Below are positions 16,857 through 44,631 of a stretch of DNA of 64,000 bases, in pieces. Position 1 is the first letter of the stretch; every line of letters begins with the position of its first letter. The notes beneath the pieces are model-generated. The model had not been told where the DNA came from. It worked only from the letters and a program-made list of their open reading frames with translations, and ran no database searches. A program made the position numbers and the translations under genes. Source of the DNA: Lysobacterales bacterium (GTDB taxonomy: Bacteria > Pseudomonadota > Gammaproteobacteria > Xanthomonadales > SZUA-38); contig JANQOZ010000049.1 in the NCBI GenBank assembly GCA_028285525.1, positions 1-64,000 of the forward strand, in the 5' to 3' direction.

Positions 16857-17044
16857 CGTTAATTCGCCCTGTTTTTTCCGGCAAGCCGGGTGACCGATGA
16901 TTTATTGATTGCACGACTCCATCCTACGACGGAGTTGTCGCAGTTAGAACTTCTGTCGCGCATTTTATCTTGACATAAAGATATCTTTGCTCGACTGTGG
17001 CCGCCCAGAAGCAGCAAAAAAGTCGGAGAAAAGTCGTCGTGAGA

Positions 17045-18349
17045 ATGTGGTTCAAGCGACTAGCCATCACGGTTGTCGGTTTATTTGGACTTTTGATGCT
17101 AACGGGCGTTGGTTTCTGGGTAACCACTAAACCCGTTTCGCCAGCCGTCCCGGCGGACGGAGTGATTCGCTTTGAAATTGACGACGGTTCAACCCTGGTC
17201 GCTAATTTTGCCACGCTTGAGGTTCCCGAAAACCGGAAAATGCCAGGGAGTCGGTCGATCTCTATTGCCTATCTGAGGGTAAAGGGTGATGTGGATGGCT
17301 CCGCTCCACCCATGTTTCTGCTGGCCGGAGGCCCCGGCGGCTCATATACAGAGATCATGAACGGTGGCGGGATCACGGAGGCCATACCCGTGGCCTATAT
17401 CAACACCATGCGCAAATTTGGCGACGTCATCATCCCGGATCTCAGGGGTACACATTACTCGCAGCCGGACTACCTGTGTGATGGGAGTGTCGGCTCCCAC
17501 CTGGCTCTGACATTGATGAAATATCACGCCGACCGAATCGATCGGGCGATTGTCTACGGTGTTGAGGGGTATGACCACACTTACGACAACCCTGCGGCGG
17601 TGCGCGACACCGCGATTAAGATAAGCGAGATGGCGTCTGGCGTTTGGAAAGCAGCGGGCCGAGAGGGCGATCCCTTGCTGGCCTTACAAAACGAAGCTGC
17701 TACCAGTTCTAAAGGTGGCGACAACTTATCCAAGCTTTTGCCATTCGAACTCGCGTTGTTCGGCATGACGGGCCAAGGCTTCAGCCTGTATAAACGCGCG
17801 ACCATGACAAGCTGGCCAAACTACGTTGCCAAATTGGTCGACGGGGGACTGTCAGGACAAGCGTTCTTCTTTCGGAACGCCGGCGGGTTGTTGCTTGCAC
17901 CGCGCGGTTGGTCTGGTGCAGCGGTTGGATTATTCGACTGTGCGTCAGGATTGTCCAAGGATCGCCGCGAGGCGATGACCGAAGCGAGTTCGCCACTATT
18001 CAATCGTATGAGCTTCACCTATTACGATTCGATATGTGCCGGCTGGAATGTTCCTGAATTGCCAGACAGTTTTCGTGAAGCCTCGCTTGTCACGGTGCCA
18101 ACACTATTTGTACAGGGCGACTTAGATTTCGCGACGCCCTTTTCCAACGCCACCGAGACCATGATCAATTTCCCCGAGAGCCATTTGGTGGTGGTTGGCA
18201 ACGGCTCACACTCAGCGTTTTTTGAGGCGCTGACGGAAACCGAAGAAATGCCGCAAGTGGTGACAGCCTGGATGAATGGGAAAGCCCCCGCTACGAGTCG
18301 AATTGATCTGCCCGCCGTTTTTTTCGATTCGGTTGTTGCAAAGGATTAA
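17045..18349 (+). CDS. Alpha/beta hydrolase with apparent internal deletion
   Basis: 434 residues from ATG 17045 (MWFKRLAITVVGLFGLLMLT, membrane anchor or signal); a GTG at 16997 is an alternative. It resembles the tripeptidyl/prolyl aminopeptidase-like hydrolases: oxyanion loop A-G-G-P-G-G-S, then D-L-R-G-T-H-Y-S-Q-P, G-S-V-G-S-H-L-A-L for the nucleophile elbow, V-Y-G-V-E-G-Y-D-H-T, a late Asp (FVQGDLDFATPFSNA) and His (VVVGNGSHSAF). In relatives the D-x-R-G-x-G-x-S strand and the nucleophile elbow are separated by roughly 80-100 residues; here about 5 residues separate them, so a helical block is missing without loss of frame. The catalytic triad is kept. Followed 2 bp later by the dehydratase gene. 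Confidence 0.8.
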   Translation: MWFKRLAITVVGLFGLLMLTGVGFWVTTKPVSPAVPADGVIRFEIDDGSTLVANFATLEVPENRKMPGSRSISIAYLRVKGDVDGSAPPMFLLAGGPGGSYTEIMNGGGITEAIPVAYINTMRKFGDVIIPDLRGTHYSQPDYLCDGSVGSHLALTLMKYHADRIDRAIVYGVEGYDHTYDNPAAVRDTAIKISEMASGVWKAAGREGDPLLALQNEAATSSKGGDNLSKLLPFELALFGMTGQGFSLYKRATMTSWPNYVAKLVDGGLSGQAFFFRNAGGLLLAPRGWSGAAVGLFDCASGLSKDRREAMTEASSPLFNRMSFTYYDSICAGWNVPELPDSFREASLVTVPTLFVQGDLDFATPFSNATETMINFPESHLVVVGNGSHSAFFEALTETEEMPQVVTAWMNGKAPATSRIDLPAVFFDSVVAKD

Positions 18350-18351: not shown

Positions 18352-19341
18352 ATGCCTGCAGATGACATTGTTACGATCGCCGCGATCCAAGCCGCGGCAG
18401 AACGTCTTGCCGGCTTCGCCATCAGAACACCCTTGCTCGTAAATGAGGTGGTGAACGCAGAGACCGGGAGGAAGGTCTATATCAAGCCCGAAACGCTGCA
18501 GGTTGGGGGTAGCTTTAAGTTCCGTGGCGCATTCAACCGAATCAGCCAGCTTTCGCTAGACGAGCGTAAGGCTGGCGTGATTGCCTGGTCGTCCGGCAAT
18601 CACGCGCAGGGCGTCGCCGCGGCCGCCAAGCTTGCGGGCACATACGCCACCATCGTGATGCCTGAAGACGCGCCCGAAATTAAGGTCTCGAAGACCCGTC
18701 ACTACGGCGCCGAAATCGTTTTCTATGATCGCTACAGCGAGAGTCGGGAAAAGATTGCCTACGCGCTGGCTGAAAAGCGCGGCGGCACCATTGTCCCGTC
18801 CTTCGACGATCAGCACATCATTGCCGGCCAGGGGACAGTTGGACTGGAGATTGGCGAGGATGTGTCAGCACGCGAGGCTGAGCTCGATGCGCTGCTCGTT
18901 TGCTGCGGTGGTGGCGGTCTCATCGCCGGGTGCGCTACGGCGATTAAAGCGCTAAGCCCAGGCACTGAGGTTTTTGCGGTTGAGCCGGAGAATTACGACG
19001 ACCATGCCCGATCGCTGCTGTCCGGCGAGCGCGAGCGGGCGGACACTTCGGAAAAGTCGATTTGCGACGCGTTGCTCTCACCACAGCCGGGAGAGCTGAC
19101 GTTTACGGTCAACAAAGAACTGCTGGCCGGTGGACTGGTGGTCTCGGAGATTGAGGTGAAACAAGCGATGGCCTTTGCCTTTCGCGAACTGAAGCTGGTT
19201 GTTGAGCCGGGTGGCGCCGTGGCGCTCGCCGCTCTGCTGTCCAGCAAGCTGCCGGAAACCTATCGAACGGTTGGTATCGTTTTGAGCGGGGGCAACGTCG
19301 ATCCTGCACTGTTTGCCCGCATACTCTCGGAAGTCGACTGA
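18352..19341 (+). CDS. PLP-dependent threonine/serine dehydratase-like enzyme
   Basis: 329 residues, fold-type II PLP enzyme without a C-terminal regulatory ACT domain, so of the catabolic/serine-racemase size class. The PLP lysine lies in G-S-F-K-F-R-G-A. S-S-G-N-H-A-Q-G-V-A-A-A is the carboxylate-binding loop, C-G-G-G-G-L-I-A-G the phosphate-binding glycine loop, and L-S-G-G-N-V-D the C-terminal cap. The reaction is expected to be deamination of Thr, Ser or a hydroxy-amino acid to a 2-oxo acid. Serine racemase, threo-3-hydroxyaspartate ammonia-lyase and EutB-like enzymes are close and cannot be excluded. The gene starts 2 bp after the hydrolase stop, so it is co-transcribed. Confidence 0.9.
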   Translation: MPADDIVTIAAIQAAAERLAGFAIRTPLLVNEVVNAETGRKVYIKPETLQVGGSFKFRGAFNRISQLSLDERKAGVIAWSSGNHAQGVAAAAKLAGTYATIVMPEDAPEIKVSKTRHYGAEIVFYDRYSESREKIAYALAEKRGGTIVPSFDDQHIIAGQGTVGLEIGEDVSAREAELDALLVCCGGGGLIAGCATAIKALSPGTEVFAVEPENYDDHARSLLSGERERADTSEKSICDALLSPQPGELTFTVNKELLAGGLVVSEIEVKQAMAFAFRELKLVVEPGGAVALAALLSSKLPETYRTVGIVLSGGNVDPALFARILSEVD

Positions 19342-19410
19342 ACCGCTGAATGGTGCCGATCACCTCCTTAGCAGCCGGCGTGAGCCTGCGCATGCTGATT
19401 GCGAATTGCC

Positions 19411-19434
19411 GGGCTGGCTCCCGGGAGCCAGCCC
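19411..19434. terminator. 24-bp palindrome between convergent genes
   Basis: GGGCTGGCTCCC (19411-19422) is followed directly by its exact reverse complement (19423-19434). It lies between the convergent stops of the dehydratase gene (19341) and the 558-residue gene (19450). A GC-rich hairpin in this place suggests a bidirectional transcription stop, although no long T-run follows. Confidence 0.5.
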
Positions 19435-19449
19435 CGCAGCTCAATAGCG

Positions 19450-21123
19450 CTAGCGACGATTGAATTTGGCCAGCGCACCGCTCGTAGACTTGCACTGGGC
19501 CTGCAGCGTTTTCGTAAACTCCGCGACAGCCCGCTCATACGGCTTGGCAAAAAGCTCCTTGGGCTCCGGAAGCGCCCTGATTCGGCGAGAAGCCCCTCGC
19601 CTCACCGTCTCTGCGCGCTTGAGCGTTGCATCCACAAGGTGCCCCAGCACAAGCGTCTCAAAGTGATCCGCGTAGACCTCTAGATCCTCGAATCGCTCTG
19701 CGAAATCCAGCAGCTCCCGCCGCCGATAAATGCCCAGTTCAAGGGGAATCTGCCAGATCATTTCGGTGACCCAGCAGGGGCCGTAGAACAGTTTCAAATG
19801 ATTCCGCAGAACCTCTCCAAGCTCCAGCTTCGAAGCGTTTACGTGGTAATCCTGAAAGCCGACGTGCTGAAAATGACTCACGACAACGGACAGATAAAAA
19901 CACTGAGTCGAAAAACCAGGCGGATTCAGCCAGACCGCCAGGTTGATGAAGTAGCGGCTGATTTTTTTCCAGTCGTTGTTGTCGGCAGCCCTGATGTTGT
20001 TGATGTTGACGTCCATCCAGTGGTGCCACGTTGAGTCGGTTGCAACTCGCCCGACGCCCGCCGTGTGTCCATCGTAAACCGCAATCATCGGGTTGTTGTT
20101 TCGACCAGGTTGCTCTCCCTTTGCGAAACGCCAGTTGTCGCTGTCCAGGTTGCTGCCGTAGGCGATGATTTCCGGCTGCGGTTTCACCCCGCCACCCGTT
20201 GCGTCGGGATATTCCGGCTCGCTGTTGAACTGCTTACTTGCTCCGAGGTCCGGCGACGGCACGCAAAGCCCCTCGTGTGCGTGGTCAGGCATCACGTCGA
20301 TTGGCCCCAGCGTGGGGTGGCAAAGCACCGGGTGCGGCCGTTTCTTCAGTCGAAAGGGAAACGGCCAGTACAAAGAGCGCCAGGTCGTCCACCGAATCGG
20401 TTGTACCGTCAGGTCTCCCTGGTGCGGTGAGTTAGAAAGCGCCAGCGGACCACCCGCCACGTAATCACTGACCGGCGGCGGCGGCCTCAGCGTGTCAATC
20501 CGGTCGCCCGTGTCGGGGTCGTTGATATTGCCGATGGGCGGCACCCCATCCGCATTGGTCCAGCGACGCATCGTGCCCAGGCGCGGGATTTTGCGGCACA
20601 TCGATGCGCCCAGAAAATGATGATCGCCGGTGCCAAAAAGACCGCCCTTTTTGGTGCTCATCCAGTCATCGAGTTTTTCCAGTTCAGCATTGGTCGTTGG
20701 CAGCGCAAAGGCCATGTCAATCTCTGCATCGCTGTCGCTGCCGGAATTGCTGGGCTTGAAGCCAAAACACCAGATCTGTTCGTACCTGTCGATCACGTCA
20801 TCGCCATCATGGACGGAGTTGAATCGAAAGCCTCGGTACTTTGGCTGGGTCGCGCTCGGGCTGGAGAGTCTCGAAAACGGCTCATCGCTGCGCAAGGCGA
20901 TATCGACCCGAAACCTCATGCAGCCAACCTGGGTATCACGGAGCAGTTCAATCACACTCGCGATGCCGAAACTGTTTACTGGACTCACGGAAATTTCGGT
21001 GTCGACAACAATCAAAATATCGACGTAGGTCTTCAGGCGCCAAGGCCTCAGCCAATCGATGATGGCCGTCTGGTACTCCGGGTGGATGGTCAAATCCTTC
21101 AGGAACTCTTTGGGTGACAGCAT
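19450..21123 (-). CDS. 558-residue protein of unknown function in the KAP operon
   Basis: The start is set at ATG 21123 (MLSPKEFLKDLTIHPEYQTA) because GGAGGAGG lies 5 nt upstream; the frame is open 23 codons further. Residues 1-150 have alternating strands and helices (VDILIVVDTEISVSPVN). A block G-G-L-F-G-T-G-D-H-H-F-L-G-A-S-M-C and IPRLGTMRRW, and later T-D-S-T-W-H-H-W-M-D-V-N-I-N, recall glutamine-amidotransferase-like (ThuA-type) proteins with conserved G-D-H and S-T-W-H-H motifs. I know these motifs only from uncharacterised proteins. The C-terminal 110 residues are helical. Located 143 bp downstream of the KAP NTPase gene on the same strand, so it is likely an operon partner. Confidence 0.6.
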   Translation of the reverse strand: MLSPKEFLKDLTIHPEYQTAIIDWLRPWRLKTYVDILIVVDTEISVSPVNSFGIASVIELLRDTQVGCMRFRVDIALRSDEPFSRLSSPSATQPKYRGFRFNSVHDGDDVIDRYEQIWCFGFKPSNSGSDSDAEIDMAFALPTTNAELEKLDDWMSTKKGGLFGTGDHHFLGASMCRKIPRLGTMRRWTNADGVPPIGNINDPDTGDRIDTLRPPPPVSDYVAGGPLALSNSPHQGDLTVQPIRWTTWRSLYWPFPFRLKKRPHPVLCHPTLGPIDVMPDHAHEGLCVPSPDLGASKQFNSEPEYPDATGGGVKPQPEIIAYGSNLDSDNWRFAKGEQPGRNNNPMIAVYDGHTAGVGRVATDSTWHHWMDVNINNIRAADNNDWKKISRYFINLAVWLNPPGFSTQCFYLSVVVSHFQHVGFQDYHVNASKLELGEVLRNHLKLFYGPCWVTEMIWQIPLELGIYRRRELLDFAERFEDLEVYADHFETLVLGHLVDATLKRAETVRRGASRRIRALPEPKELFAKPYERAVAEFTKTLQAQCKSTSGALAKFNRR

Positions 21124-21266
21124 AGGGCCTCCTCCTCCACTGCTTTGTGTCGTCTCAAAAAAAGGAACGCCAGCAATCGCCCGTTCCCTCATGGCGACTT
21201 CGGATGACTTAAAGAATTGTGATGGGCCGGGTAACGGGCACAGCGCTCACCGGCGAGGATGGTGAC

Positions 21267-24200
21267 TCAGTCGTCCGCACCGGTGCCGGCCCCGGGGTTG
21301 CCGCCGTTGACCTCACTCGGTGCACGCGAGTTTGACCCTCGATAGTAGCCCCGTTGCAGCGTTGCCTCCCTTTCTGCATCGGTTTCACCCACAAACGAGA
21401 ACGAGGTCAACAGCCTCAGATTTGCCTCCTCCAAATGGCCTAAGGTCATACGCTCGGGAATGAAATCCGGTCGCCGCAAAACCTCTGCTACCCGGTACCA
21501 GTCCGGCGGATACGGAGCTGCGTCGGCACCCAAAAGGGCCTGTTCAGCCAGAAATTCAACGAGCAGCCTGTGGCCAAGGCCTTTTTTGGCGCGGTAGGCC
21601 GTTTCCATATCGGCCAGCAGCTTGCGCAACACTTCCGGATAGCGCGCGCAGAGCGCCAGGATGGCCAGCATGGACTGTTTCACGTCGGAACTCGGTCCAG
21701 CTTCCAGCCCCTGGCGGTACCAAATGATCTTCAACAGCTTGAATACGTTAACCAGCCGCTTCATGGTCCGAGGGCTGACCGACAACGCGCTGCAGGCGTC
21801 GGTGATCGCCTTGAATTCGTCGGGTTGAAACTGGATAACTTCGCTCGGCAGTTCCGCCGAGTCGCCCTGCGTGGCATGGGTAGACGCCGACAGCCGGGCG
21901 GTCTCGACCTGCTCCTCTGCGGTTTCGGGTTTGTCCTGTTCGCCGTCGTCTTGCCCCTCGCCGCTGTCCACGGGCTCTTCGACCTCCGTGCCCTCTTCGA
22001 TTTCCATCTGCGAGCGCAGGAAGGACCGGATGGCCGGAGTGGAAACACTTCGCACGCGGTACGGGATCTGGATGATTTTTTCGATGTAGTCGAGTCCGGA
22101 CGGCTCGCCGCTTCGAACCAGCACGCCCTGGTAGATCGACTCAAGCGCCCGCGTGACGTAGCGAACGTCCATGGCAATCACGACGACAAACAGTCGGGTC
22201 TTCACCAGCAGCTGAGCGGCCTCGAGAACTTCGACCACCTTATCGGGTGGACACCGGTCGAGGTCATCAATAAGCAAAACCACTCGCGGCTCGCCCCGCG
22301 GGAATAGTTGATCCAGCTTTTTGCGGTCTACGATCCCGTCGGAATGCGCCGGGACGAGCGTATCGCTCAACTCCTGGATGTCGCTCTGAACCTGGTCCAG
22401 CATGCCGAGTTCCTGATGATAAAGACCCTCCTCAATTCGGGTCTTCAGAAAATCGTTCAAACTGCGGCTGTGTCCGGTCACACCGAGGCGGGCCCGGATC
22501 CGCTCAACCCTCGCTTCGCTATCCTCGATTCTGGCGTTGAGCTCAGCAACGCTGGCCGCGGTGCTGTTTTCTTCAGCGACCTGCAAACGCTCTTCCATAC
22601 GCGCTTCGCGCAGCTTTTGAAAATCTTCCTGCGCAGCAGCGAGCCGCTGTTCGTAGGCAGCACGACGGTTTTCGATCCAGCTCCACGCGCGCACGAGGGG
22701 AGCCGTAACGGCGAGAATGCCACCCGTCAGCGTCGCCCAAAGTTCAGCAACGGGCGTTAGCACCGCAACTGATATTCCGCCACCCAGGGCAACGATCATA
22801 AAAGCCACAATCGGCCAGGAAATATCTTTAAACCCAAGGCCAATTTTCTGAAGAAACGACATCCGCTGAACCACCTGTGCGAAGGTAGGAGCGTCAATCT
22901 TGTCGAGCCCCCCCTTCGTTTGTTCAACGAGTTCGTCCCAAACGGGCGCCAGGGCAACACGCCGACTTTCTCTAGCCAGCTCCTCATCGACTTCAACTTC
23001 GAGCTTACGCTGTTCGTTTAGCTTCCTGCTGCGCAGGTCGCGTAGCTCCCCTTCCTTTTTCAAAAGGTGCTTCTTTTCGACCTCGCGCAAACGTTCCAAC
23101 TCAGCCCACAGGCGGCTGGGAGAGCCGTCTCGCGCAAACGCCGCCGTCGTTTCAAGCGCCTTTTTTCCGTTCGTGTCTTTGAGCAGTCGTTTCCGCTGTT
23201 TGTCGGTAAGGCCCTGCATCAATCGCCAGACCGGTGACGACTCACAAGGGTCAATAGGTAGGGACTTAAGGAGTTCATGCTCGAGGGAGAGCTGTCGATC
23301 CAGCTCCACGAGCGTCGTCTGCATCAGACTGGCCCAGAGATTATTCTTTGCGTACGTCCAGGCGTCGAACCGGACAAGGTAGGGATGGCCGACAAACGGA
23401 TACGCAGAGCGCGCTTCGGAATTGACGCCCACGGCCTGGCACCGCAGTTCCTGCAGCCGATCTTCGATCAGGTGTAAAACAAAAGACTTTCCTGTGCCCC
23501 AGCCGCCGAAGACTCCGACGACGAGCGGCGGATGCATTTTCTTGAGCGCTATGGCGTCAGCAATCGCCTGCACCTCGTCAACAATTTTGAGTCGATCAGG
23601 CCCCGCTGGCATATCGTTCAGGAGCGCCTGGCTGACGCGCGGAGGCTCTTCCTCCGGCAATTTCAAATCATGAACCCGTGAGCCCGAGAATTGCTGCCGC
23701 ACTCCTTCCGGGAGACCCGAGAAAACTATGCCAACCTGATCAGGCGGCGCGCTGATCTGTTTAAGCACTTCATCCGTGAGGCCGAGCGAATCAGCCTGCG
23801 CTTTGGCGTCGACTCCGTGCCATTCGACAAAAAGCACCAAGCGCTGGCCGGCTGGCAGCTTCTTGTTGCTCCATTGATCAAGCAACGCTGGGAGACTGGA
23901 AGACGTCGGGGAGACATTGCTCGCCGAGCTCGTCTCAACCGCGGAACCGTCTACCACGTGACGCCACGAACGCTGGGACGTACCGGGCCGAAAATTCACG
24001 CCGAGCTCCGGAAGAAAATCGCCAACCGTGGCAAACCTGCCTGCGGCGATTTCCTTGAGGTCCGACGACAAATCATTCTCGAAGTCCGACCAGCTTGCAC
24101 CCGGCCTCATCCGATAATGGGCCGTCAAGCAGGTATTGTTACGCTGCCTGAAGCACAGCCGGACCAGCTCCTCGAGTCTTCGTGCGCCCTCGGTCAATAC

Positions 24201-24680
24201 AAGAAACCCGCTCTCCCCGGTTGGAAGATTTGAAACCGGAACAGAAGCGCTCTCAGTTTTGCCCTGGAGAATCTTCAGGAACCGCCCTAAATGCTGTCGT
24301 TTGCCGGCGTGTTCCGGCAGCAGCAACGAGTCGAAGTCCTCCGTGAGTTCTTGCTGGATCTGCGCTGCAAAGCTGCGCAGATAGTCGCCAAACTCCGGAT
24401 CGAGCCGGCACAAGGCGAGGATGACGAGCCGTCCGTGAAGCTTGTCAACGAGCACCGGATCAAACATGGCCCGCGCTTCCGCAAGCCAGTCTTCTGCCGA
24501 CTGTTGACGGGAGAATGGAGGAAACTCCACGCCTGCCATTTCCCGTGCGGTGTTCGACGCATATTCCGGGTGGCGCTCAAGGATCTTCTGGACAAGCTCC
24601 GCCGCAGTAATGGAATCTCGCGGCAGGTCTTTCAGAACGCGCCTCACGGTTGGTGAGTAGTTGATACTTTGCTGTTCCAC
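21267..24680 (-). CDS. KAP-family P-loop NTPase with N-terminal extension
   Basis: 1137 residues with a GTG start behind GGGAGGAATC. Residues 1-370 form a separate N-terminal region: a helical start (SPTVRRVLKDLPRDSITAAE, LVQKILERHPEY) and an alpha/beta part (P-A-G-Q-R-L-V-L-F-V-E-W-H-G). The KAP domain follows: Walker A G-V-F-G-G-W-G-T-G-K398-S-F, coiled-coil segments, two membrane helices inserted near 617-660, Walker B V-V-L-L-I-D-D-L-D-R-C near 800-806, and arginine-finger-type R-T-M-K-R-L-V-N-V-F-K. KAP NTPases are membrane-associated STAND-like ATPases found in conflict and phage-exclusion contexts (PifA, for example). A regulatory switch for the divergent effector operon is an inference. 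Confidence 0.85.
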   Translation of the reverse strand: MEQQSINYSPTVRRVLKDLPRDSITAAELVQKILERHPEYASNTAREMAGVEFPPFSRQQSAEDWLAEARAMFDPVLVDKLHGRLVILALCRLDPEFGDYLRSFAAQIQQELTEDFDSLLLPEHAGKRQHLGRFLKILQGKTESASVPVSNLPTGESGFLVLTEGARRLEELVRLCFRQRNNTCLTAHYRMRPGASWSDFENDLSSDLKEIAAGRFATVGDFLPELGVNFRPGTSQRSWRHVVDGSAVETSSASNVSPTSSSLPALLDQWSNKKLPAGQRLVLFVEWHGVDAKAQADSLGLTDEVLKQISAPPDQVGIVFSGLPEGVRQQFSGSRVHDLKLPEEEPPRVSQALLNDMPAGPDRLKIVDEVQAIADAIALKKMHPPLVVGVFGGWGTGKSFVLHLIEDRLQELRCQAVGVNSEARSAYPFVGHPYLVRFDAWTYAKNNLWASLMQTTLVELDRQLSLEHELLKSLPIDPCESSPVWRLMQGLTDKQRKRLLKDTNGKKALETTAAFARDGSPSRLWAELERLREVEKKHLLKKEGELRDLRSRKLNEQRKLEVEVDEELARESRRVALAPVWDELVEQTKGGLDKIDAPTFAQVVQRMSFLQKIGLGFKDISWPIVAFMIVALGGGISVAVLTPVAELWATLTGGILAVTAPLVRAWSWIENRRAAYEQRLAAAQEDFQKLREARMEERLQVAEENSTAASVAELNARIEDSEARVERIRARLGVTGHSRSLNDFLKTRIEEGLYHQELGMLDQVQSDIQELSDTLVPAHSDGIVDRKKLDQLFPRGEPRVVLLIDDLDRCPPDKVVEVLEAAQLLVKTRLFVVVIAMDVRYVTRALESIYQGVLVRSGEPSGLDYIEKIIQIPYRVRSVSTPAIRSFLRSQMEIEEGTEVEEPVDSGEGQDDGEQDKPETAEEQVETARLSASTHATQGDSAELPSEVIQFQPDEFKAITDACSALSVSPRTMKRLVNVFKLLKIIWYRQGLEAGPSSDVKQSMLAILALCARYPEVLRKLLADMETAYRAKKGLGHRLLVEFLAEQALLGADAAPYPPDWYRVAEVLRRPDFIPERMTLGHLEEANLRLLTSFSFVGETDAEREATLQRGYYRGSNSRAPSEVNGGNPGAGTGADD

Positions 24681-25070
24681 GATTCCTCCCGGTCGCTGTT
24701 GCCGGCCGGCCGAACGCGATCAACTCAAACGGCGGTTACAGTTGGGTGTCACAAATGGCGTAAAACTCTCACCGGAGTCGGCTGTGAGTGCAGCTGAGGC
24801 CACCCGAGAAAGAAACGCAGAAGAGCTCCCATGTGCACGCAACCTATTTGTCTGGGAGATTTGCCAGCGAAAAAACACTAGTCCAAGAAGAGACAGACCA
24901 ACCCTGAAACACCGCCGAGCACCGCCGCGATACCTATTGCTAAGGCGCCTGGCGGGCAAAGCCGCGTGTGCTAGAGTTTTGGTGGTAGCGGCCGATTTTT
25001 CGCCGGGTTTTTCTGAGGTAAGGGATGGCAATTTCCGTTGCCATAGTGGCGGGGATCACTGGAGAAACTT
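24681..25070. promoter_or_regulatory. Divergent control region between KAP and effector operons
   Basis: 390 bp with no supported gene. It must hold the promoters for both operons. The sequence next to the KAP start (24681-24690) is a strong ribosome binding site. A 7-bp inverted repeat lies near the other end. I could not identify convincing -35/-10 pairs by eye. Confidence 0.5.
25025..25044. promoter_or_regulatory. Inverted repeat before the five-gene operon
   Basis: ATGGCAA (25025-25031) and TTGCCAT (25038-25044) are exact inverted arms with a 6-nt spacer, 26 bp upstream of the first start codon and just before its ribosome binding site (GGAG at 25061). It could be an operator or a leader hairpin that controls translation of the operon. 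Confidence 0.35.
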
Positions 25071-26021
25071 ATGCCTGACTCAACCGCAATGACAAAGCTG
25101 CGAAGAATATTGCGCAGCAACGCCGACTCTTCTAAACGAGCTGTACAGCTCACCGAGATTGCAGACCAGCTCCCTGAAGCCGCGGTCGACGTCCTGGACG
25201 ACGCCTTGGCCACAGAAGATCCTCTGATGCAGGTCGCCATAATGGATGCCTACTTCGAGATGACCGGCCATGATTTTCACGCCGGGGATCTGGAAGACCT
25301 GATGGCGCTGGCCAGGACTATGGGAGATGCCGGGGAACAGCTATACATGGCCGCGCGGGTCGCGCTTGGGCGCATCACCGGCCGGGTGGCCGACACGCTC
25401 GATGAGTGGGGCGATGGCGATGTGGTCATCACAGCCACCGCAAGACGGCGTCGTCGCCGGAGACGACGCGGGCGGCCGCGGGTCATCAACGAAATCACGA
25501 TCATTATTCACGGCACGTGGGCCTCAGACGGCGACTGGTGGCAGCCCGGCGGCAACTTCTTTGAGTACGTCAAAACCGACCTTGGACGCAGCGACCTCTA
25601 CGGCGGAGCAGACCGTTTCAGGTGGAGCGGCAAAAACCGAGATTCCAAACGGCGGCAGGCTGCCGCTGAGCTTGACCGATGGCTGCGGTCTCACCCGGCT
25701 CGGGAAGTGAACGTGTTCGGCCATAGTCATGGCGCAAACGTTGCCATGTTGGCCACCCACAAGGGCATCAAAATGGATCGATTGATCATGATGAGTCCGC
25801 CGGTAAGGAGCGACTATTTTGCCAACTGGTCAAACGTCAATGCCGCTTACAACATCCAGGCCAAATGGGATCCGGTGGTGGCCATCGCGCGCGGCGGACA
25901 GTGGTTCGAGCTGCCGCAAGTCAAAGAAAAGAAGCTCAGGGTGAGCGGTCATTCTGAGTCTCATGAGCCGGACGTATGGCGATCAGAGCGTCTTCCTGCT
26001 TTCGTCGACATGCCCTGGTGA
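25071..26021 (+). CDS. Alpha/beta hydrolase with HEAT-like N-terminus and Arg9 linker
   Basis: 316 residues from ATG 25071 with GGAG 7 nt upstream. Residues 1-115 are helical, HEAT-like (DVLDDALATEDPLMQVAIMD). A run of nine arginines (residues 125-133) then leads into an alpha/beta hydrolase: strand I-T-I-I-I-H-G-T-W, nucleophile elbow G-H-S219-H-G, I-M-M-S-P-P strand, and a late Asp (K-W-D-P-V) and His (VSGHSESHEPD). Family members are esterases or lipases. It has no signal peptide, so it acts inside the cell. Its stop overlaps the GTG of the next gene (GTGA). The poly-Arg linker could bind nucleic acid or anionic lipid (inference). Confidence 0.8.
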   Translation: MPDSTAMTKLRRILRSNADSSKRAVQLTEIADQLPEAAVDVLDDALATEDPLMQVAIMDAYFEMTGHDFHAGDLEDLMALARTMGDAGEQLYMAARVALGRITGRVADTLDEWGDGDVVITATARRRRRRRRRGRPRVINEITIIIHGTWASDGDWWQPGGNFFEYVKTDLGRSDLYGGADRFRWSGKNRDSKRRQAAAELDRWLRSHPAREVNVFGHSHGANVAMLATHKGIKMDRLIMMSPPVRSDYFANWSNVNAAYNIQAKWDPVVAIARGGQWFELPQVKEKKLRVSGHSESHEPDVWRSERLPAFVDMPW

Positions 26022-26506
26022 GAGAACCTGAGCGGCGACAACTGATTGACGCGCTCGAAAGCGACGACGTTCATCAACAGGCCGCCGCCGCCGTTCGTCT
26101 CGGCCAATTGCGTGTGACGGAAGCCTTGGACATGCTGCAGCCGCTTTGCAACAGCCGGGAACCGGCCGTTGCGCTGGCCGCCATGTTTGCCTGCTGGGAG
26201 ATGGGCGAAGATCGAATCGACGCTGAACGCCTCGCCACCGCGCTGGCCGCCAGATCGGAAACGACGCAGCAGTTCGCCGCCCACTTTGTCACCGCCGTGG
26301 GTGCACGGCTGGTGGCGCGCCTGACGCCAATGCTGGAGGGAGCGGGCGACCGTGCGTCGGCCATACTTTGCGCGCTTGACGACATACATACCCGCGAGGC
26401 GCGGCAGGCTGTCGTTCAGGCGCAGCTCCGGGAGCCGGAGCTCGACCTGCAACGACAGGAAATTCTGAAAGATTGGGGCGAGGACGAAACCGGGAGCATC
26501 GCGTAG
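26018..26506 (+). CDS. HEAT-repeat-like protein
   Basis: 162 residues from GTG 26018, chosen because GTGA overlaps the previous stop by 4 bp; an ATG at 25976 would give a 46-bp overlap. The protein is nearly all helix, with HEAT-like repeats (QQAAAAVRLGQLRVTEALDM, REPAVALAAMFACWEMGEDR). Such repeats form protein-binding solenoids. It resembles the helical N-terminus of the upstream hydrolase and may act as its partner or inhibitor; this is inference. A coding-like stretch in the same frame follows the stop. Confidence 0.7.
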   Translation: MREPERRQLIDALESDDVHQQAAAAVRLGQLRVTEALDMLQPLCNSREPAVALAAMFACWEMGEDRIDAERLATALAARSETTQQFAAHFVTAVGARLVARLTPMLEGAGDRASAILCALDDIHTREARQAVVQAQLREPELDLQRQEILKDWGEDETGSIA

Positions 26507-26509
26507 ACG

Positions 26510-26620
26510 TGAACATCCGCCCAGGCCTTCTTTGAGCGAGCCGACTTTCGGAAACTGCTAAAACTGCCCGACTACTACGGGGCGAAGATCGACGGATTGC
26601 GCATGGGTCGCAGTCTTTGA
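26510..26620 (+). pseudogene. Coding-like remnant in frame after the HEAT gene
   Basis: In the same frame as the HEAT gene, after TAG (26504) and TGA (26510), an open stretch of 35 codons reads ...AFFERADFRKLLKLPDYYGA... and ends at TGA 26618-26620. It looks protein-like but has no ATG, GTG or TTG start at its beginning. It may be the former C-terminus of the HEAT protein, cut off by stop mutations. Confidence 0.35.
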
Positions 26621-26644
26621 GGACCATTGACCGGAGTAAACCTC

Positions 26645-29065
26645 ATGGCAGCAAACAAAAAGCGTGCTGTTGGCAAAAAACCCGTCAGGAAAAAGGCGAC
26701 GAACGCAACAAAAGCCACAACCCGAAAAACCACCAGGAAAGCCACGCCTGCCAAGGCCACAAAGAAAAAGACCAGCAAGAAGAAGACGGCGAAGCGGACC
26801 AAAAAGCCAGCGGCCAAAGGGAACATTTCTGGCAGCGGTCTTGCGGTCACCATAGCGAACGACGATGGCGCCAACTTTTCGCTCCCATCGGATACCGGCC
26901 TTCAATCACTGGCTATGCGCTGGCGATACGTGCTGTCGCGCAGATTGCGGTGGAAGCGGAGCTCTCCCCGCGAGATGCGCAGAGAGGCGTTCCGGATCAT
27001 CTCAAAGTTCGCCTTGGAAAAGGCCGTCAGGCATACGTTGGCCTCGGCGTCGGTTGTCGAAGTACAGGTGCCTTACGTGAACGAGGAAACGGCGTGGGAG
27101 GGACGCGTTGCACCGTGGGAATTCCTGCTGAGTTCAGCGGCGAAGGAGTCGGGCAATCAGACGCCTATGGCAATCGTTCGTTGGCTGAAGGTACAGCACA
27201 AGGTTCGCACGCCACGGGAATGGCGCACGCTTTACGTTGAGTGCGCCCCGGGCTTTTTGGGTGAGTTCTACGATTTCTCATCGGAACGAAAAATCGTGGA
27301 GTCGATGTTTGTCGATCATTTCAAACCCTGCATCAATCCGAGCATCGAAGAGCTCCAGGCGGCGATCCGCCAGCACCGGCCGGATATCATCCACATTGCC
27401 GGCATCGACAACAATCAAGCCAAGGAGCTGTTCGAGGATAAGGGGGAACTGCCGGAGAACTGGCCTGATTCGCGCAATTTGGACGGCGTGGTGTTTACCA
27501 GCAACCAGCCGCAACACCACCTTGGCATCGAGCCGGTCGATGCCGAGCGGCTGGCGCGTGTCCTGAATTCCGGCTCACGCCAGGTCAGCCTGGTGACGGC
27601 CAATGTCTACCATTCAGCATCCCGGATCTGCGCCATGGCGGTCGCCGAAGGGGCCGGACTGGCTCTTGGATTTCAGGACACCGTCAGCGATGCACTCGCT
27701 GAAGTGCTGCTTCATGATTTTTATTTGCATTGGAAGGAGACGAAACAGCCTTTGACGGCGTTCGTTGGCGCGCTGGATGTCGTTCGGGCGTCGGTATCAC
27801 TTTCTGGTACAGGCGTCGTGCTGTGGAGCGCCGACACGCTCCTCGATGGGGCCAGCAGCAAGCTCGAAAAGACCCGGACTGCTCGCAAGCAAAAGCGAAA
27901 GGCTGACCTCCACCTGGAAGGCCAGTACTCCGACTGGTTCTCAGTCGAGATTACCGTTCGCGAGAGGCTCAACTATTCCCTGCTCCACAACGACAGCGGT
28001 GGCCTGTTCAAATCGCTGTCTTTTCGTAAGCAGAAAGAGGGCGTCCTGCGAAACGTTGGGGTGGAGGTGATTCTTTACCTTGGCTCGGAGAGCCACCCGT
28101 ACAGCGCGAGTTTCACCTTGTCGGAATACCTCACACCGGTTCATGAAAAGATCAAGGTGCCGCTGACTTCATCCATTATCCGAACCGTGCAGGAGCCCAT
28201 GCGAACCAGTCTGTTCGTGAAGGTCACGGTCGAGTCCACGGTGGTCTATCAGGAGACCCACCGGGTAACGCTGCTGCCGGCCGATGAGTGGAAGGATTCA
28301 GACGCCGACCGGATCTGGCTGCCCTCTTTTGTGCTGCCCCGGGATCCGGCGATCGAGAAGATTATTGATAGCGCCCAGAAGCACCTGGTGACGCTGGCAG
28401 ATTACGATCGGCGAGGTTTCGACGGTTATCAAAGCATCGATCCGGACGATCCCGGCTCGCTGGCTGAAATCGACCTGCAGGTCCAGGCGATTTGGGCCGC
28501 CATCGTCAGCGACTTTGGGATTCGCTATATCAATCCTCCACCAAGCTATACCCGACTGGGCCAAAGGCTACGAACGCCAACCCAAATTGTCAGAGGCGGT
28601 CGTGGCACCTGTATCGATCTTGCGCTGCTCCTGTGCGCATGTCTCGAGTACATCGAGATCTACCCCGTCATTTTTCTTCTGGAGGGCCACGCGTTCGCCG
28701 GATACTGGCGTGATGAACAGCGCTATTTCGATTTTTTCGAGGCGCTTCAGGAGGGCATCGAAGAAGAAACGATGCGTTCCTCCATCGGGGCCACCACATC
28801 GCAAAACGCCTGGGTACTGCCGTCTGACAGCTACGCCGAGATTCTCAACGAGGTCAACAGAGGGTTTCTCTACCCCCTTGAGACTGTGGGCTTTACGACC
28901 CACGGGAGTTTCTGGGAGGCCATCGAGGAGGGTGTCGATAACCTGAGAAGCCGGAGCGAATTTCATTCGCTGGTCGATATCTGGTCGGCCCGGTCGGAGT
29001 TCATCACGCCTTTGCCGATCATCGACGATCTCAATCATAGCCGAGGGGCCAACCATCATGTCTGA
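26645..29065 (+). CDS. H1-like tail - CHAT-like - transglutaminase-like protease fusion
   Basis: About 806 residues from ATG 26645, with GGAG 9 nt upstream. Residues 1-65 are a Lys/Ala/Thr-rich, histone-H1-like tail (KKKTSKKKTAKRTKKPAAKG). Residues about 190-400 have a CHAT (caspase-like) layout: D-I-I-H250-I-A-G keeps the His, but the N-A-C-x-S motif reads N-V-Y322-H-S, so the catalytic Cys is lost. A beta-rich middle follows. The C-terminus has a transglutaminase-like cysteine protease: R-G-T-C656-I-D-L-A-L-L-L, E-G-H682-A-F-A-G-Y-W, Y-F-D696-F-F. So the active protease centre is likely C-terminal. It may process the partner hydrolases (inference). Overlaps the next gene by 8 bp. Confidence 0.8.
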   Translation: MAANKKRAVGKKPVRKKATNATKATTRKTTRKATPAKATKKKTSKKKTAKRTKKPAAKGNISGSGLAVTIANDDGANFSLPSDTGLQSLAMRWRYVLSRRLRWKRSSPREMRREAFRIISKFALEKAVRHTLASASVVEVQVPYVNEETAWEGRVAPWEFLLSSAAKESGNQTPMAIVRWLKVQHKVRTPREWRTLYVECAPGFLGEFYDFSSERKIVESMFVDHFKPCINPSIEELQAAIRQHRPDIIHIAGIDNNQAKELFEDKGELPENWPDSRNLDGVVFTSNQPQHHLGIEPVDAERLARVLNSGSRQVSLVTANVYHSASRICAMAVAEGAGLALGFQDTVSDALAEVLLHDFYLHWKETKQPLTAFVGALDVVRASVSLSGTGVVLWSADTLLDGASSKLEKTRTARKQKRKADLHLEGQYSDWFSVEITVRERLNYSLLHNDSGGLFKSLSFRKQKEGVLRNVGVEVILYLGSESHPYSASFTLSEYLTPVHEKIKVPLTSSIIRTVQEPMRTSLFVKVTVESTVVYQETHRVTLLPADEWKDSDADRIWLPSFVLPRDPAIEKIIDSAQKHLVTLADYDRRGFDGYQSIDPDDPGSLAEIDLQVQAIWAAIVSDFGIRYINPPPSYTRLGQRLRTPTQIVRGGRGTCIDLALLLCACLEYIEIYPVIFLLEGHAFAGYWRDEQRYFDFFEALQEGIEEETMRSSIGATTSQNAWVLPSDSYAEILNEVNRGFLYPLETVGFTTHGSFWEAIEEGVDNLRSRSEFHSLVDIWSARSEFITPLPIIDDLNHSRGANHHV

Positions 29066-30389
29066 GCGACGAGAAGACCCCCGCCATGATTGGCTCAACC
29101 GCCAGCTCGATCTCGCCACGGAAGGGCTGGGCATTTACGGCGCGGACCAAATGGTGCGCTCGTTCGAGCCAACGGCGGTCCATCGGCTGCGCCGCACGGG
29201 AGGCACCCGCGTCGACGACAATCTCGGCACAGTCACCCTGGTAGAAAAAGACGGCGTGCTGCGGTGGGTCGACGGGCTTGGCTTTCGCCAGCGGGATCAG
29301 CGCCGACGGCGCCGGCAGGGCCCCGGACAGACGGGGAGCATCATCAAACAGCTTAAGTATGAGCGCCTGGAGCAAAACGCGGTCGGCAGCGCCATTGCGC
29401 AACTCGACCTCAAGCTGAACGCCAATACGGGCATTCGAGCCTGGAGTTCCCCTACCCGGGCAAGGCGAGCCACACCTCGCTCCGACGGCCGCATCCTGCT
29501 TTTCGTGCACGGCACCTTCAGCAAATCTGAAGCGATCACCGACGGCCTGAACGCCACCGACAAGGGCAAGGCGTTTTTTGACAAGGCCAAAGCTCACTAC
29601 GATCAGATCATCAGCTTCGATCACCCGACCCTCTCAGTTTCTCCCGTGCTGAACGCGATCGACCTCACGCGTCATCTTGCCGGCACGGACGCTGAGATCG
29701 ACGTCATTTGCCACAGTCGCGGCGGACTCGTGGTGCGCTGGTGGGTGGAAGCGCTGCTCGCCAACCCCGACAGACTCGGGAAGGTCATTTTTGTGGGTTC
29801 GCCCCTTGCAGGGACAAGCCTCGCAGCTCCGCCGAGGCTGCGGTCAGGGCTGGATATGCTGACCAATATTGCCGAGGTGCTGGGGAAAGGGAGTCAGCTG
29901 GCGAGCACCGTCATCCCGCTTTTCACTGCCGTTGCGGGCATTCTCAAGATTTTCGGTTCCGCAGCAAGGGTTTTGTCCAAGACGCCCTTGATCGACGCCA
30001 CCGTCTACATGATCCCCGGCCTTGCCGCACAGTCGATGACCGGTGACAACAGTTCGATTCTGAAACTGCGGGAAGGGATCAGCCGCACAACGGCGCGCGC
30101 CTACTATGGGGTGGCGTCGGACTTTGAACCGATCAGCCCGGGATGGGCTTTTTGGCGATACTTTCAGCGTCCGCTGCAGCATCTTGCTGATGCCGGAGCA
30201 GACATGGTGTTTGAAGGCAGCAACGACCTTGTGGTGGACACGCACTCGATGAGCGAGCTGTCGGATCAACTGAGCATCCCGAACACTCGAATGATGTCGT
30301 CAGGCCCCCAGGACGTCATCCATCATCTGAATTACTTTCGCCAGGAAAGCGTGATCGAATACTTCGAGAAAACGCTGAAACTTTCCTGA
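29058..30389 (+). CDS. Alpha/beta hydrolase, lipase-like (DUF7379 type)
   Basis: 443 residues; the ATG lies inside the end of the previous gene (8-bp overlap). Residues 1-140 are polar with a basic run (R-D-Q-R-R-R-R-R-Q-G). The hydrolase core has L-L-F-V-H-G-T-F for the oxyanion strand, I-D-V-I-C-H-S220-R-G-G-L-V-V-R as nucleophile elbow, V-F-E-G-S-N-D-L-V-V for the acid and H-H-L-N-Y-F for the likely catalytic His. An amphipathic/hydrophobic insert (GLDMLTNIAEVLGKG ... VIPLFTAVAGILKIFG) could form a lid or membrane-binding helix. This domain type occurs near CHAT proteins in conflict operons as I recall. Likely a phospholipase- or esterase-like effector. Confidence 0.8.
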   Translation: MSERREDPRHDWLNRQLDLATEGLGIYGADQMVRSFEPTAVHRLRRTGGTRVDDNLGTVTLVEKDGVLRWVDGLGFRQRDQRRRRRQGPGQTGSIIKQLKYERLEQNAVGSAIAQLDLKLNANTGIRAWSSPTRARRATPRSDGRILLFVHGTFSKSEAITDGLNATDKGKAFFDKAKAHYDQIISFDHPTLSVSPVLNAIDLTRHLAGTDAEIDVICHSRGGLVVRWWVEALLANPDRLGKVIFVGSPLAGTSLAAPPRLRSGLDMLTNIAEVLGKGSQLASTVIPLFTAVAGILKIFGSAARVLSKTPLIDATVYMIPGLAAQSMTGDNSSILKLREGISRTTARAYYGVASDFEPISPGWAFWRYFQRPLQHLADAGADMVFEGSNDLVVDTHSMSELSDQLSIPNTRMMSSGPQDVIHHLNYFRQESVIEYFEKTLKLS

Positions 30390-30414
30390 TAGTTCTTCAC
30401 TGAGAGCAAAGCGC

Positions 30415-31677
30415 ATGGCGATCTATGTTTTTGACGGAACCGGGCAGCTCGACAGCAACGTTGAGCGCCCCGACCCCACCGATACGAACGTTGCAAGGTT
30501 TCTCCAGTGCACCGGCGCTGACGACATCGAGGCATTCTACAAGGCGGGCGTCGGCACTCGCTTTGGCCGACCTGGGAAAGTCATTGGGGGGATATTCGGA
30601 GCAGGCGCCCGATCTCGACTCGCGAAGATGTTTGAAAACCTGGAAGAAGTCTTCATGTCGGGCGACGAACAAATCGCGATTGTCGGCTACAGTCGAGGCG
30701 CAGCCATGGCTTTGCACTTTGCCAACATGATTAACGAAGCGACCATCCAGAATCAGCGCGGTGAGATGACAACCGCACCGCCGATTCAGTACCTGGGTTT
30801 GTTTGACGCTGTCGCTTCGTTTGGGCTGAGTTTCACGATCGGGCCATTGGTGGACTTTCAGGCCATCAATCTTGGCTGGAATCTGACGGTGCCTCCGAAC
30901 GTTGAGTCGTGCCGCCACGCGCTGGCCTTTGACGAGCGGCGAGAAACGTTCAGACCCACGCGACTGAACGCTGACCACACGAACGCCAGCATTACTGAAG
31001 TCTGGTTCAAAGGCGACCACGGCGACATCGGGGGCGGAAACCAGAACGACGGGCTGAGCAACATCTCGCTTGCGTGGATTCTGGAGGGCGCCAAGGCGGC
31101 CGGCGTCGAAGTGGACGACGCCAAACTGGCGTCGGTACGCGCAGGCCAAGATCCCTCGGCGGCGCCCAAACTGTCGTCGCTCGACCCGGTGCAAGATCCC
31201 TATCGTGAAACTCTGCCTGGCGACCAGTTTGACGCGAATCAGTGGTCGCTCCTGAAGCTCAACGAGAGCCGATCAGTCGAAGTGTTGGCCGGGGCGCGCT
31301 ATACGGATACCGGCATCCTCATCAAAAAGGGCAACCAATACGTGTTCTCCTTTGACGGGGAGTGGCGCGACGGCGACATCACCTGCAGCGGCGAGGGGTG
31401 GACGCTGGCGGACGTCAGGAAAGGCCCTCTCGAACTGGTGATGAAAGTGACCCAACCGATGAGGCGCGTCAAGGACGCCAAGTGGTTTGAGCTCATCGGG
31501 TCCCTTGGTAGAAGCAACCGAGATCAGATCAGAATCGGCAACGGGCAGTATTCGTCTGAGGAAACGCCGTTTGTCGCAACGTCAACCGATGCCCTGTTCC
31601 TGTACCCAAACGATCTGATGCACATGTATTGGAACAACCGAGGCGCCATCAGCGTCACGATCACCCGCACCGGGTGA
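30415..31677 (+). CDS. DUF2235-like lipase with C-terminal lectin-like domain
   Basis: 420 residues, 25 bp after the previous stop, ATG with GAGAG upstream. The N-terminus Y-V-F-D-G-T-G is the DUF2235 start. The nucleophile elbow is V-G-Y-S93-R-G-A-A, followed by G-L-F-D-A-V-A-S (Asp) and E-V-W-F-K-G-D-H-G-D-I-G-G-G (His), as in Tle1-type phospholipases of type VI secretion and in DUF2235 proteins. Residues about 300-420 form a beta domain ending F-L-Y-P-N-D-L-M-H-M-Y-W-N-N-R-G-A, similar to the PA-IL/LecA-like lectin fold. No secretion signal or VgrG/PAAR gene is near, so an intracellular effector role is as likely as secretion. Confidence 0.85.
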   Translation: MAIYVFDGTGQLDSNVERPDPTDTNVARFLQCTGADDIEAFYKAGVGTRFGRPGKVIGGIFGAGARSRLAKMFENLEEVFMSGDEQIAIVGYSRGAAMALHFANMINEATIQNQRGEMTTAPPIQYLGLFDAVASFGLSFTIGPLVDFQAINLGWNLTVPPNVESCRHALAFDERRETFRPTRLNADHTNASITEVWFKGDHGDIGGGNQNDGLSNISLAWILEGAKAAGVEVDDAKLASVRAGQDPSAAPKLSSLDPVQDPYRETLPGDQFDANQWSLLKLNESRSVEVLAGARYTDTGILIKKGNQYVFSFDGEWRDGDITCSGEGWTLADVRKGPLELVMKVTQPMRRVKDAKWFELIGSLGRSNRDQIRIGNGQYSSEETPFVATSTDALFLYPNDLMHMYWNNRGAISVTITRTG

Positions 31678-31855
31678 GTTTCTTTCCCGGGCCGCGCCGG
31701 CGGTCCGAGCTTGGTCACCTTCAATGCCCACCGTTTTTTCGTCGCGCTATGAAACGGCCTTATAGATACCGTTGACGATTCTATTGGACAGCCAGGGCAA
31801 AAAACCCCAAGGTCCATGGCCTCGCTTGAACAACCCATTACCAAGGAAACCCTCA

Positions 31856-41620: not shown

Positions 41621-43051
41621 CTAAACTGGAGCCAATTTTCGCAGCGCTTTCCAACGGTTCTTTGCAGCCACCAGAAACCCGGCCGTTGAGCTGCGAGCAG
41701 TGACGGTAAAGTCGGTATCCAGCATCCAGGCCAGGCCGTCATAGACCAGGGCAAAGGGTTCGGAGACCGGAAAGGCTTTAGGCATAACGGCAAACTCAAA
41801 GGTGGCCAACTCTCCTGGCGGCACGCGTCTTTCCCGGAAACCCGCCGGCCTGTTCGGGCTGAGCCACGAATGATGCGCCAATTCGGACAACCGGTCACGC
41901 GGCGACGTTGTGGCGATACGAATCGGATCATCTTCAGTCCACGTGTGCCTGCCGACATTCTGCACGACGACCCTAATGTGGTCTTGGGCTGTCAGCCTCG
42001 ATTGGTCGAAGCGTATTCTTCCTGCATAGAGCAGCGGGTGCTTTCCGTTCGCCGCGTTACAGCGCCGGCAAATTTCAGGAATATCCATGCCGTCCAACAA
42101 TCGTCGTCGAAATTCCCGGAATCGTGGTCCATTCCATAGGTTATCCCAAGAATCCCGCCTCAGATCACCCATGATGGCCGCAGCGTCTTTTGACGCGTTG
42201 CAGCAGGGGAATACCCGCCCCTCTCTATCGATGAAGGGGACCTCCCACGGTACGCTGCACTGTTTGGTTTCCTGGGGATCGACCACCGGCTGATGAAACC
42301 GCCGCAAGGCTTCACGGGGCCTGTGCCGCTCAAGCAGCATGCGCTCAGCCGCAAGCATTTCGATTTCGACATCGAATTCCGCTCCCCTGTCGTGTATCTG
42401 ATCCAGGTAGGCGAACAGCTCGGGGTTGCGCAGCAACTGGGCTTCCGGACATGAGTCGGTATAGTCCATCAAACCCTGTAGCAGCAGTTTCTTAACACCC
42501 AACCCGGCAAGAATTTTTGGAGAATGCACGAGGTCCTGAAGGTTCTGAGCCATCAAAACCGATGACACGGTCACCTTGGTTGGGTCGTTGATGACAGCCA
42601 TCAGATTGCCAAGACCCTTCAATGCCTTGTCGACTTTGCCTCCTCGAATGTCTCCGTAGCTGCGCTGTATCGGTGAATCTATGGAAAAGTTGTAGTGCGC
42701 GACGTACTCGAGTGTCGCCAACTCCTGCGCGACGGACTTTGTGATGGGAGTCCCATTGGTGCTCAGTCCAACTACCACCTTTGCCTGATTTAGTTCTCTT
42801 AGCAGCGGCAGGAAGCGGGGGTTCAAAAATGGCTCTCCGTACCCTGTGAGCGTGACGTTTCCAACGCGTTTGGCGAGCGGCAATATCTCCTCCCACAGCG
42901 CTTCTCTCATGTGCCCGGGATGGACCCCCGAAAGCGTTTCTCCGGTCGTCAGCGGGCACATCTTGCAGGTCAGATTGCACCTGCTGGTGACCTCGATTTG
43001 TAGCGTTTTCGGAGAATCCCGTTCGAGCAGCGATTCGTCGATGTGGGTCAT
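41621..43051 (-). CDS. Radical SAM/SPASM protein with C-terminal beta domain
   Basis: 476 residues from ATG 43051; another in-frame ATG lies four codons upstream. The radical SAM motif is C25-N-L-T-C29-K-M-C32, followed by L-T-G-Y-G-E-P-F-L-N (SAM-binding 'GGE' equivalent). A SPASM-type cluster region has C-S-V-P-W, V-F-P-C-C-N-A-S-K-D and C-R-R-C-N. The last 130 residues (about 345-476) form an Ig-like beta domain (IRVVVQNVGRHTWTEDD). SPASM enzymes often modify ribosomal peptides, but no precursor-like ORF or transporter is adjacent; sugar or cofactor modification is also possible. Confidence 0.88.
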   Translation of the reverse strand: MTHIDESLLERDSPKTLQIEVTSRCNLTCKMCPLTTGETLSGVHPGHMREALWEEILPLAKRVGNVTLTGYGEPFLNPRFLPLLRELNQAKVVVGLSTNGTPITKSVAQELATLEYVAHYNFSIDSPIQRSYGDIRGGKVDKALKGLGNLMAVINDPTKVTVSSVLMAQNLQDLVHSPKILAGLGVKKLLLQGLMDYTDSCPEAQLLRNPELFAYLDQIHDRGAEFDVEIEMLAAERMLLERHRPREALRRFHQPVVDPQETKQCSVPWEVPFIDREGRVFPCCNASKDAAAIMGDLRRDSWDNLWNGPRFREFRRRLLDGMDIPEICRRCNAANGKHPLLYAGRIRFDQSRLTAQDHIRVVVQNVGRHTWTEDDPIRIATTSPRDRLSELAHHSWLSPNRPAGFRERRVPPGELATFEFAVMPKAFPVSEPFALVYDGLAWMLDTDFTVTARSSTAGFLVAAKNRWKALRKLAPV

Positions 43052-43315
43052 AGTCTGGAACAAGCCGATTCACAAACACTATAACGTTCGTGAGGCCAAG
43101 TGAGTATGGAATTTGATCAAAAGGACAGAGCGAACAAGCGGCCCGTTGCACTAGCTGTCAAACGCTCTGGGTGCTTAGCCACTTTGGCGTGATTTAACCT
43201 GGCCCTCACCCTGGCCTCGCTACCCCGGCAAAGTTAACCTGACCGCTTCGTTCCTTTATATGCAGCGTCAATGTATTGTTAACTATGAACGATTCCCTAG
43301 TTCGGAGTAGTAGGA

Positions 43316-43717: not shown

Positions 43718-43837
43718 CTGGCCTCACCCCGAGGGTCCGAGCAGTAGGGTCCAGGACCGTGGGTGATGATCAGTCAGCGGTACGCTTGCGGGAACCCTGA
43801 GTGGTCGTGGCGATATGCGAAACCGAATTGGCCGCAG

Positions 43838-43929: not shown

Positions 43930-43934
43930 TCAAC

Positions 43935-44555: not shown

Positions 44556-44631
44556 AACAGTGTGTCCTGTGTTTGACGGGGCACATCGTCCAACGGCATG
44601 GGAGCGGTGTCTACGACAGATACCCGCCATT

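Follow-up and report, generated by a model that had tools for sequence, protein, structure and literature searches.

Caspase-hydrolase conflict systems and the locus

Bacterial conflict systems that pair a protease of the caspase superfamily with an alpha/beta hydrolase have been described before. In the sections of Kaur et al. (2020, PMC7159879) that deal with these systems, the caspase domain always occurs with a neighbouring alpha/beta-hydrolase gene, and transglutaminase-like peptidases appear as rare alternatives. According to the relevant part of a further paper, the place of STAND NTPases in related systems may be taken by KAP ATPases (Kaur et al. 2021, PMC8195603). A block of seven genes, P1 to P7, with parts of these kinds lies in a stretch of 64,000 nucleotides from a Lysobacterales bacterium (GenBank assembly GCA_028285525.1, contig JANQOZ010000049.1, positions 1 to 64,000), which is called the window here. 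A leftward operon encodes the KAP-family NTPase P2 and P1, and a divergent rightward operon encodes three alpha/beta hydrolases (P3, P6, P7), the HEAT-like protein P4 and the protease-like protein P5 (Table 1). Judged from its sequence, it is quite possible, though short of probable, that the block serves as a conflict cassette directed against its own cell, of the abortive-infection or programmed-death type, consisting of an NTPase switch, a protease-like partner and an alpha/beta hydrolase.

Among the described systems, the MoxR-vWA (VMAP) ternary systems, as outlined in the same sections of PMC7159879, resemble the block in that a protease-superfamily protein adjoins an alpha/beta hydrolase, and a relative of P6 in genome G876 lies behind a CHAT protein bearing TCAD7 (Pfam 'Ternary complex associated domain 7'). 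The block differs by KAP in place of MoxR (no MoxR or vWA Pfam match up to E 1 in the seven proteins), by the missing CHAT dyad, by a transglutaminase module in the same protein, and by its three hydrolases. Fusions of DUF7379, the hydrolase family of P6, with CHAT or C14 caspase domains (in Ruegeria, Ensifer and others) share the hydrolase family, its serine and a protease-superfamily partner, but their CHAT domains have His and Cys, and hydrolase and protease are fused in eight of nine cases. The large helicase-like proteins of NCBIfam NF058533, named ProA, have at their N-terminus a module to which P5 residues 449-705 are related, but nothing in P5 corresponds to the other three quarters of the 1903-position model. 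The Qat system likewise has a KAP-type NTPase, and P2 matches QatA profiles (2e-22 and 1e-24); however, its QatA score is 86.7 bits against a cut-off of 600, and none of the seven proteins matches QatB, QatC or QatD.

In the open-licence PubMed Central literature, neither the exact combination of parts nor the paper behind the name ProA was located. The initial annotation of this locus, which knew of no described system with exactly these parts, agrees with this for the full set, but the core pair is of an already described kind. The novelty lies in having KAP as the switch, three hydrolases together and a protease that seems to have been swapped. The conflict-type character that it had assigned to the parts also holds, with a KAP NTPase and a protease-like/alpha-beta-hydrolase pair that matches the theme published in the cited sections of PMC7159879.

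P6 and the partners of DUF7379 hydrolases

The central evidence comes from P6. Ten relatives were found, one in another of the 274 genomes of the class, two in 72,556 plasmid records and seven further ones in 299 genomes of the order, of which one is a second copy within the source genome. In all nine readable contexts the relative is accompanied by a caspase-superfamily protease. Six are fused to CHAT (Ruegeria L024, Ensifer L025, G809 L112, the own-genome copy L113, G370 L117 and G751 L120) and two to a C14 caspase (G785 L118 and G940 L119), and the relative in G876 (L111) starts 11 bp behind the CHAT gene. Pfam backs the hydrolase and protease domains in each of the nine; the tenth relative (G166 L026) is cut by a contig end. 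The Ser-Asp-His residues of P6 (Ser220, Asp390, His423) align with all ten relatives, with the serine kept in every one. P6 is a hydrolase of the kind that stands beside caspase-superfamily proteases. Pfam lists the function of DUF7379 as unknown, and if the reading given here is true, these hydrolases would acquire a firm partner rule.

An NTPase gene lies close by at four of the nine loci, in two of them divergently, the remaining five loci having been annotated less than exhaustively. The NTPases are a PtuA-like ATPase in Ruegeria, which scores below the model cut-off, and nSTAND1 proteins in Ensifer, G785 and G940.

Two arrangements among the relatives stand on their own. On the megaplasmid of Ruegeria pomeroyi DSS-3 (L024, 11344-18208), the DUF7379-CHAT fusion is followed by the PtuA-like ATPase and then by a small protein that resembles HNH by eye, as in Septu; possibly this is a form of Septu whose effector is a lipase-caspase protein. 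In L118 (4344-13880) and L119 (1933-11777), a C14 caspase-DUF7379 fusion is encoded divergently from a protein that combines a CHAT-like head with nSTAND1 and WD40 repeats, so that a pairing of caspase-lipase and STAND recurs in these two loci.

P5, a protease-like protein without the CHAT dyad

P5 has an in-frame TTG at 26627, and its residue numbers count from this codon unless marked as ATG numbering. The H1-like lysine-rich tail that had been noticed initially is real, with 25 K/R in 64 residues and no D or E. After the tail follow the CHAT landmarks PWEF, DIIHIAG and VSD....LLHDFY. The CHAT His and Cys are both present in all eight CHAT domains aligned from DUF7379 loci (two are from L111 and one is the CHAT-like head of the L118 nSTAND1 protein; in one domain the His occurs as HA, not HG), and neither is present in P5. 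The source genome contains seven other CHAT matches, and P5 is not among them.

The C-terminal half of P5 (residues 449-705) matches, in its best stretch, positions 1-247 of NF058533, 'anti-phage protein ProA' (8e-55). The score of 186 bits compares with a full-length cut-off of 1500, so that P5 is not a full-length ProA. Large-ORF relatives of this half measure 1,756-2,251 aa and were found in six other genomes in one search and seven in another. Shorter relatives comprise 12 ORFs of 391-585 aa, and on plasmids there are 76 records, 24 of the 30 listed ones being annotated as DUF3320 or DUF4011. Across 26 aligned relatives of the transglutaminase-like module, the Cys is conserved in 25 and the His in 24, and P5 has both; no position could be assigned to the third residue, an acidic one. 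P5 had no match in G001, G002 or G003. A PDB sequence search gave nothing for P5 (best E for the CHAT-like region, 0.86), and a scan of genome contigs, which needs exact short peptides and so reaches close relatives only, returned solely a helicase-like ORF of 1,877 aa.

Because the dyad is missing and the Cys and His of the module are kept, P5 appears to be a pseudo-CHAT with a live cysteine module: its CHAT part has probably lost protease activity, which would reside in the transglutaminase-like part instead. Of the initial description of P5 as CHAT-like and transglutaminase-like, the second half is borne out, and the first applies to a weakly scoring region that lacks the dyad. Since the relatives of P6 pair with caspase-superfamily proteases, and P5 lacks the dyad and carries a transglutaminase-like module, the locus gives the impression of a conflict plan of known type in which the protease has been exchanged. 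If this is true, the protease of bacterial caspase-lipase pairs would be replaceable, with the inactive domain left in place as a scaffold, and the effect of the protease on the lipase would become testable by point mutants.

Hydrolases P3 and P7

P3, P6 and P7 belong to three different alpha/beta-hydrolase families with the nucleophile elbows GHSHG, CHSRGG and GYSRG, respectively. The Lipase_3 match of P3 is narrow (22.7 bits against a cut-off of 22). The earlier assignment as lipase-like hydrolases agrees with their intact serines, and none of the three has a hydrophobic N-terminus. A likeness of the P7 C-terminus to the PA-IL/LecA lectin, seen by eye, is unproven, with no Pfam match up to E 10 and no PDB match.

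The leftward operon

P2 has a Walker A motif at 392, a Walker B motif at 800 and an inserted hydrophobic stretch from about residue 620. With P-loop domain, Walker motifs and hydrophobic insert all present, it is a member of the KAP NTPase family. Its relatives on plasmids (four loci viewed of six records) lie near SIR2, DUF4062, DUF2971, DarT/macro or toxin-antitoxin genes.

P1 has a clear relative in one of 397 other genomes of the phylum, G420, with no other block members nearby, and shares the motifs TGDH, PDHxHEG and DxTWHH with it. A ThuA or glutamine-amidotransferase-like fold is conceivable for P1; Pfam gave nothing for P1 or five relatives. A PDB sequence search found nothing for the P1 profile or the P1 relative. 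Viral contigs scanned with the single P1 or P5 sequence yielded nothing, and the P1 alignment A1 yielded one partial P1 relative. A second apparent match, in G653 (E 8.6e-4, one internal stop), was rejected as spurious, as it lies among flagellar-type genes according to the reading of translations. As an observation in its own right, the family without a name to which P1 belongs (L012 13949-15541, L018 1-1083 and L019-L021) carries the same three motifs and includes more distant plasmid relatives of about 292 aa (L019-L021).

The block as a variable cassette

Open reading frames confirmed the seven genes of the initial annotation with their order and strands, the overlaps of 4 bp (P3/P4) and 8 bp (P5/P6) and the gap of 25 bp between P6 and P7. 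Further gaps separate P4 from P5 (138 bp) and P2 from P1 (140 bp). The four residues singled out at that stage (Ser219, Ser220, Ser93 and, in ATG numbering, Cys656) are also present. The spacer between the operons is presumably the site of promoters for both.

Table 1. Coordinates of the seven genes, the divergent spacer and the variable cassette in the window
Feature	Position	Strand	Description
P1	19450-21126	minus	558 aa from ATG preceded by GGAGGAGG; without named family
P2	21267-24680	minus	KAP-family P-loop NTPase, 1137 aa; PF07693 4e-34
Divergent spacer	24681-25070	none	390 bp; from ORF coordinates and sequence inspection
P3	25071-26021	plus	helical N-terminus and lipase-like alpha/beta hydrolase, Ser219 in GHSHG; Lipase_3 1e-4
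P4	26018-26506	plus	small HEAT-like repeat protein, GTG start; HEAT_2 9e-4, below cut-off
P5	26645-29065	plus	ATG start; after the lysine-rich tail a CHAT-like region with no His-Cys dyad, and then a transglutaminase-like module (Cys656, His682 in ATG numbering)
P6	29058-30389	plus	DUF7379 alpha/beta hydrolase, PF24096 9e-38; Ser220, Asp390 and His423 align with relatives
P7	30415-31677	plus	Tle1-like/DUF2235 hydrolase, PF09994 6e-39; Ser93; C-terminal domain common to relatives
Variable cassette	19394-31741	none	no blastn counterpart in G001 (same genus); close to the extent first annotated

Comparison of the window with contig C13 of G001, the one genome of the same genus in which presence of the block was assessed, gave six collinear blastn stretches of 73-91% identity, the three long ones at 91, 86 and 82%. 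Homology ends at window position 19393 and restarts at 31742, with 12.35 kb unmatched in between. In G001 the flanks contain the same genes in the same order, and the position of the block is taken by an AraC-type regulator and a beta-lactamase-family gene. Because it is missing between syntenic flanks, the block is regarded as a discrete variable cassette and the grouping of the seven genes as more than chance. None of the seven proteins matched transposase or integrase families in Pfam, and a script that compared the two block ends found no words of 9-20 bases in common, direct or inverted.

Proposed function and alternative explanations

In the proposed scheme, the membrane-anchored NTPase P2, perhaps with P1, would sense or integrate a trigger. 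Once P5 is engaged, cutting or amide chemistry would fall to its transglutaminase-like cysteine module, with the CHAT-like half serving as an inactive scaffold. The target, most likely P6 and perhaps also P3 and P7, would thereby be released, and the released hydrolases would turn on the cell's own membrane lipids or on other acyl esters in it, with P4 and the N-terminus of P3 as candidate docking parts. Because P3, P6 and P7 have no hydrophobic N-terminus and the genome has no VipA match, the cassette is expected to act inside the cell. It may serve in phage defence. A more elaborate version is conceivable but unlikely: P5 would be a hybrid in which the dead CHAT (pseudo-caspase) is retained beside the DUF7379 effector, the ProA-type transglutaminase-like module is catalytic and the lysine-rich tail tethers the protein to nucleic acid or membrane, and KAP would replace the STAND/MoxR switch and drive three lipase-like effectors in one immunity cassette.

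A number of results weigh against such a single cassette, the lack of recurrence among them. The ORFs of 41 context loci of relatives, and those of the G001 stretch L039, were searched for matches to any of the seven proteins at E up to 1e-3. The conserved co-occurrence that had been suggested as a check was not found, as exactly one of the seven proteins is represented in 38 of the 41 loci; three loci, the distant P1-like plasmid loci L019-L021, had no passing match, and L097 fell below the limit in the large comparison and was counted by its match in a smaller one. Going by these single-member matches, the seven-gene set is so far known from this locus alone, and a second one carrying all of it did not turn up in the searched samples. 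All viewed relatives of P7 (4 loci of 132 records) and of P3 (5 loci) are without other block members; likewise, in the loci of the 12 short transglutaminase ORFs, which span 3.6 to 20 kb, neither another member of the block nor a CHAT match occurs. P1 has no Pfam, PADLOC or NCBIfam family match. The CHAT score of P5 is weak: Pfam CHAT gives 0.02 and 14.8 bits against a cut-off of 24, and with an 8-sequence CHAT profile P5 reaches 8.0 bits, a score that none of 1000 shuffles attained (best 5.7), but E is 1.2 per 10,000 sequences. A wider profile, made from 30 CHAT loci minus L047 and L051, gives about 1 bit, and hhalign of the CHAT-like region gave no convincing match. AlphaFold2 models of P5 alone (mean pLDDT 32.6) and of P1 with one relative (31.3) were meaningless. 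Finally, no KAP relative lies beside a relative of P3, P5, P6 or P7 in the 41 loci, and KAP is linked to the hydrolases here because both share the block.

The last point speaks for the view that the variable locus houses two independent cargo systems, namely a unit of KAP and P1 and a hydrolase operon in which only P5 and P6 form a conflict pair, their divergence being coincidental. This view is doubtful but has to be taken seriously, since relatives of P2 pair instead with SIR2, DUF2971 and other genes, and the corresponding site in G001 is occupied by other variable genes. However, both operons lie within one block whose boundaries are tight around them, and the NTPases near relatives of P6, two of them divergent, speak for a joint system. 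A role of the hydrolases as lipase toxins against other bacteria, passed to rivals in the manner of Tle1-like type VI effectors and with the remaining genes providing immunity or regulation, is highly improbable. P7 does match the Tle1-like catalytic family and the solved Tle1 chains 9j3f and 6sjl (PDB), and P3 weakly matches Tle3 (0.014), but VipA, the sole component of the type VI secretion system searched for, had no match in the source genome (98.25% complete) or in G001, with G002 and an E. coli control positive, and the seven proteins, none of the hydrolases having a hydrophobic N-terminus, include no VgrG or PAAR. The rival's membrane, which the initial annotation had allowed as a lipase target beside that of the own cell, is therefore an unlikely one. 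An ordinary metabolic esterase operon, merely absent from the sister species, would suit the metabolic flanking genes (a PALP enzyme and an aldehyde dehydrogenase) and the base composition of the block, which resembles that of its flanks. Such an operon is nevertheless very unlikely in view of the linkage of DUF7379 with proteases, the conflict-type neighbours of the KAP NTPase elsewhere and the module that P5 has in common with 'anti-phage ProA'.

Neighbouring genes

The last blastn stretch on the left, a 64-bp piece at 19330-19393 (within window 19109-19495), falls inside the AraC gene of G001, and the window may retain a scrap of an older gene that was replaced by the block. Also to the left, an alpha/beta hydrolase (16997-18349) has 450 aa, compared with 501 aa in G001, and the blastn alignment jumps near 17490, perhaps owing to an internal deletion. 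Near the block, positions 37620-40118 encode a WD40-repeat protein of 832 aa whose N-terminal residues (about 1-270) have no listed Pfam match. At 41621-47241, a radical SAM/SPASM protein occurs with nearby proteins of 382 and 434 aa that have no Pfam matches, and this region is perhaps a peptide-modification cluster.

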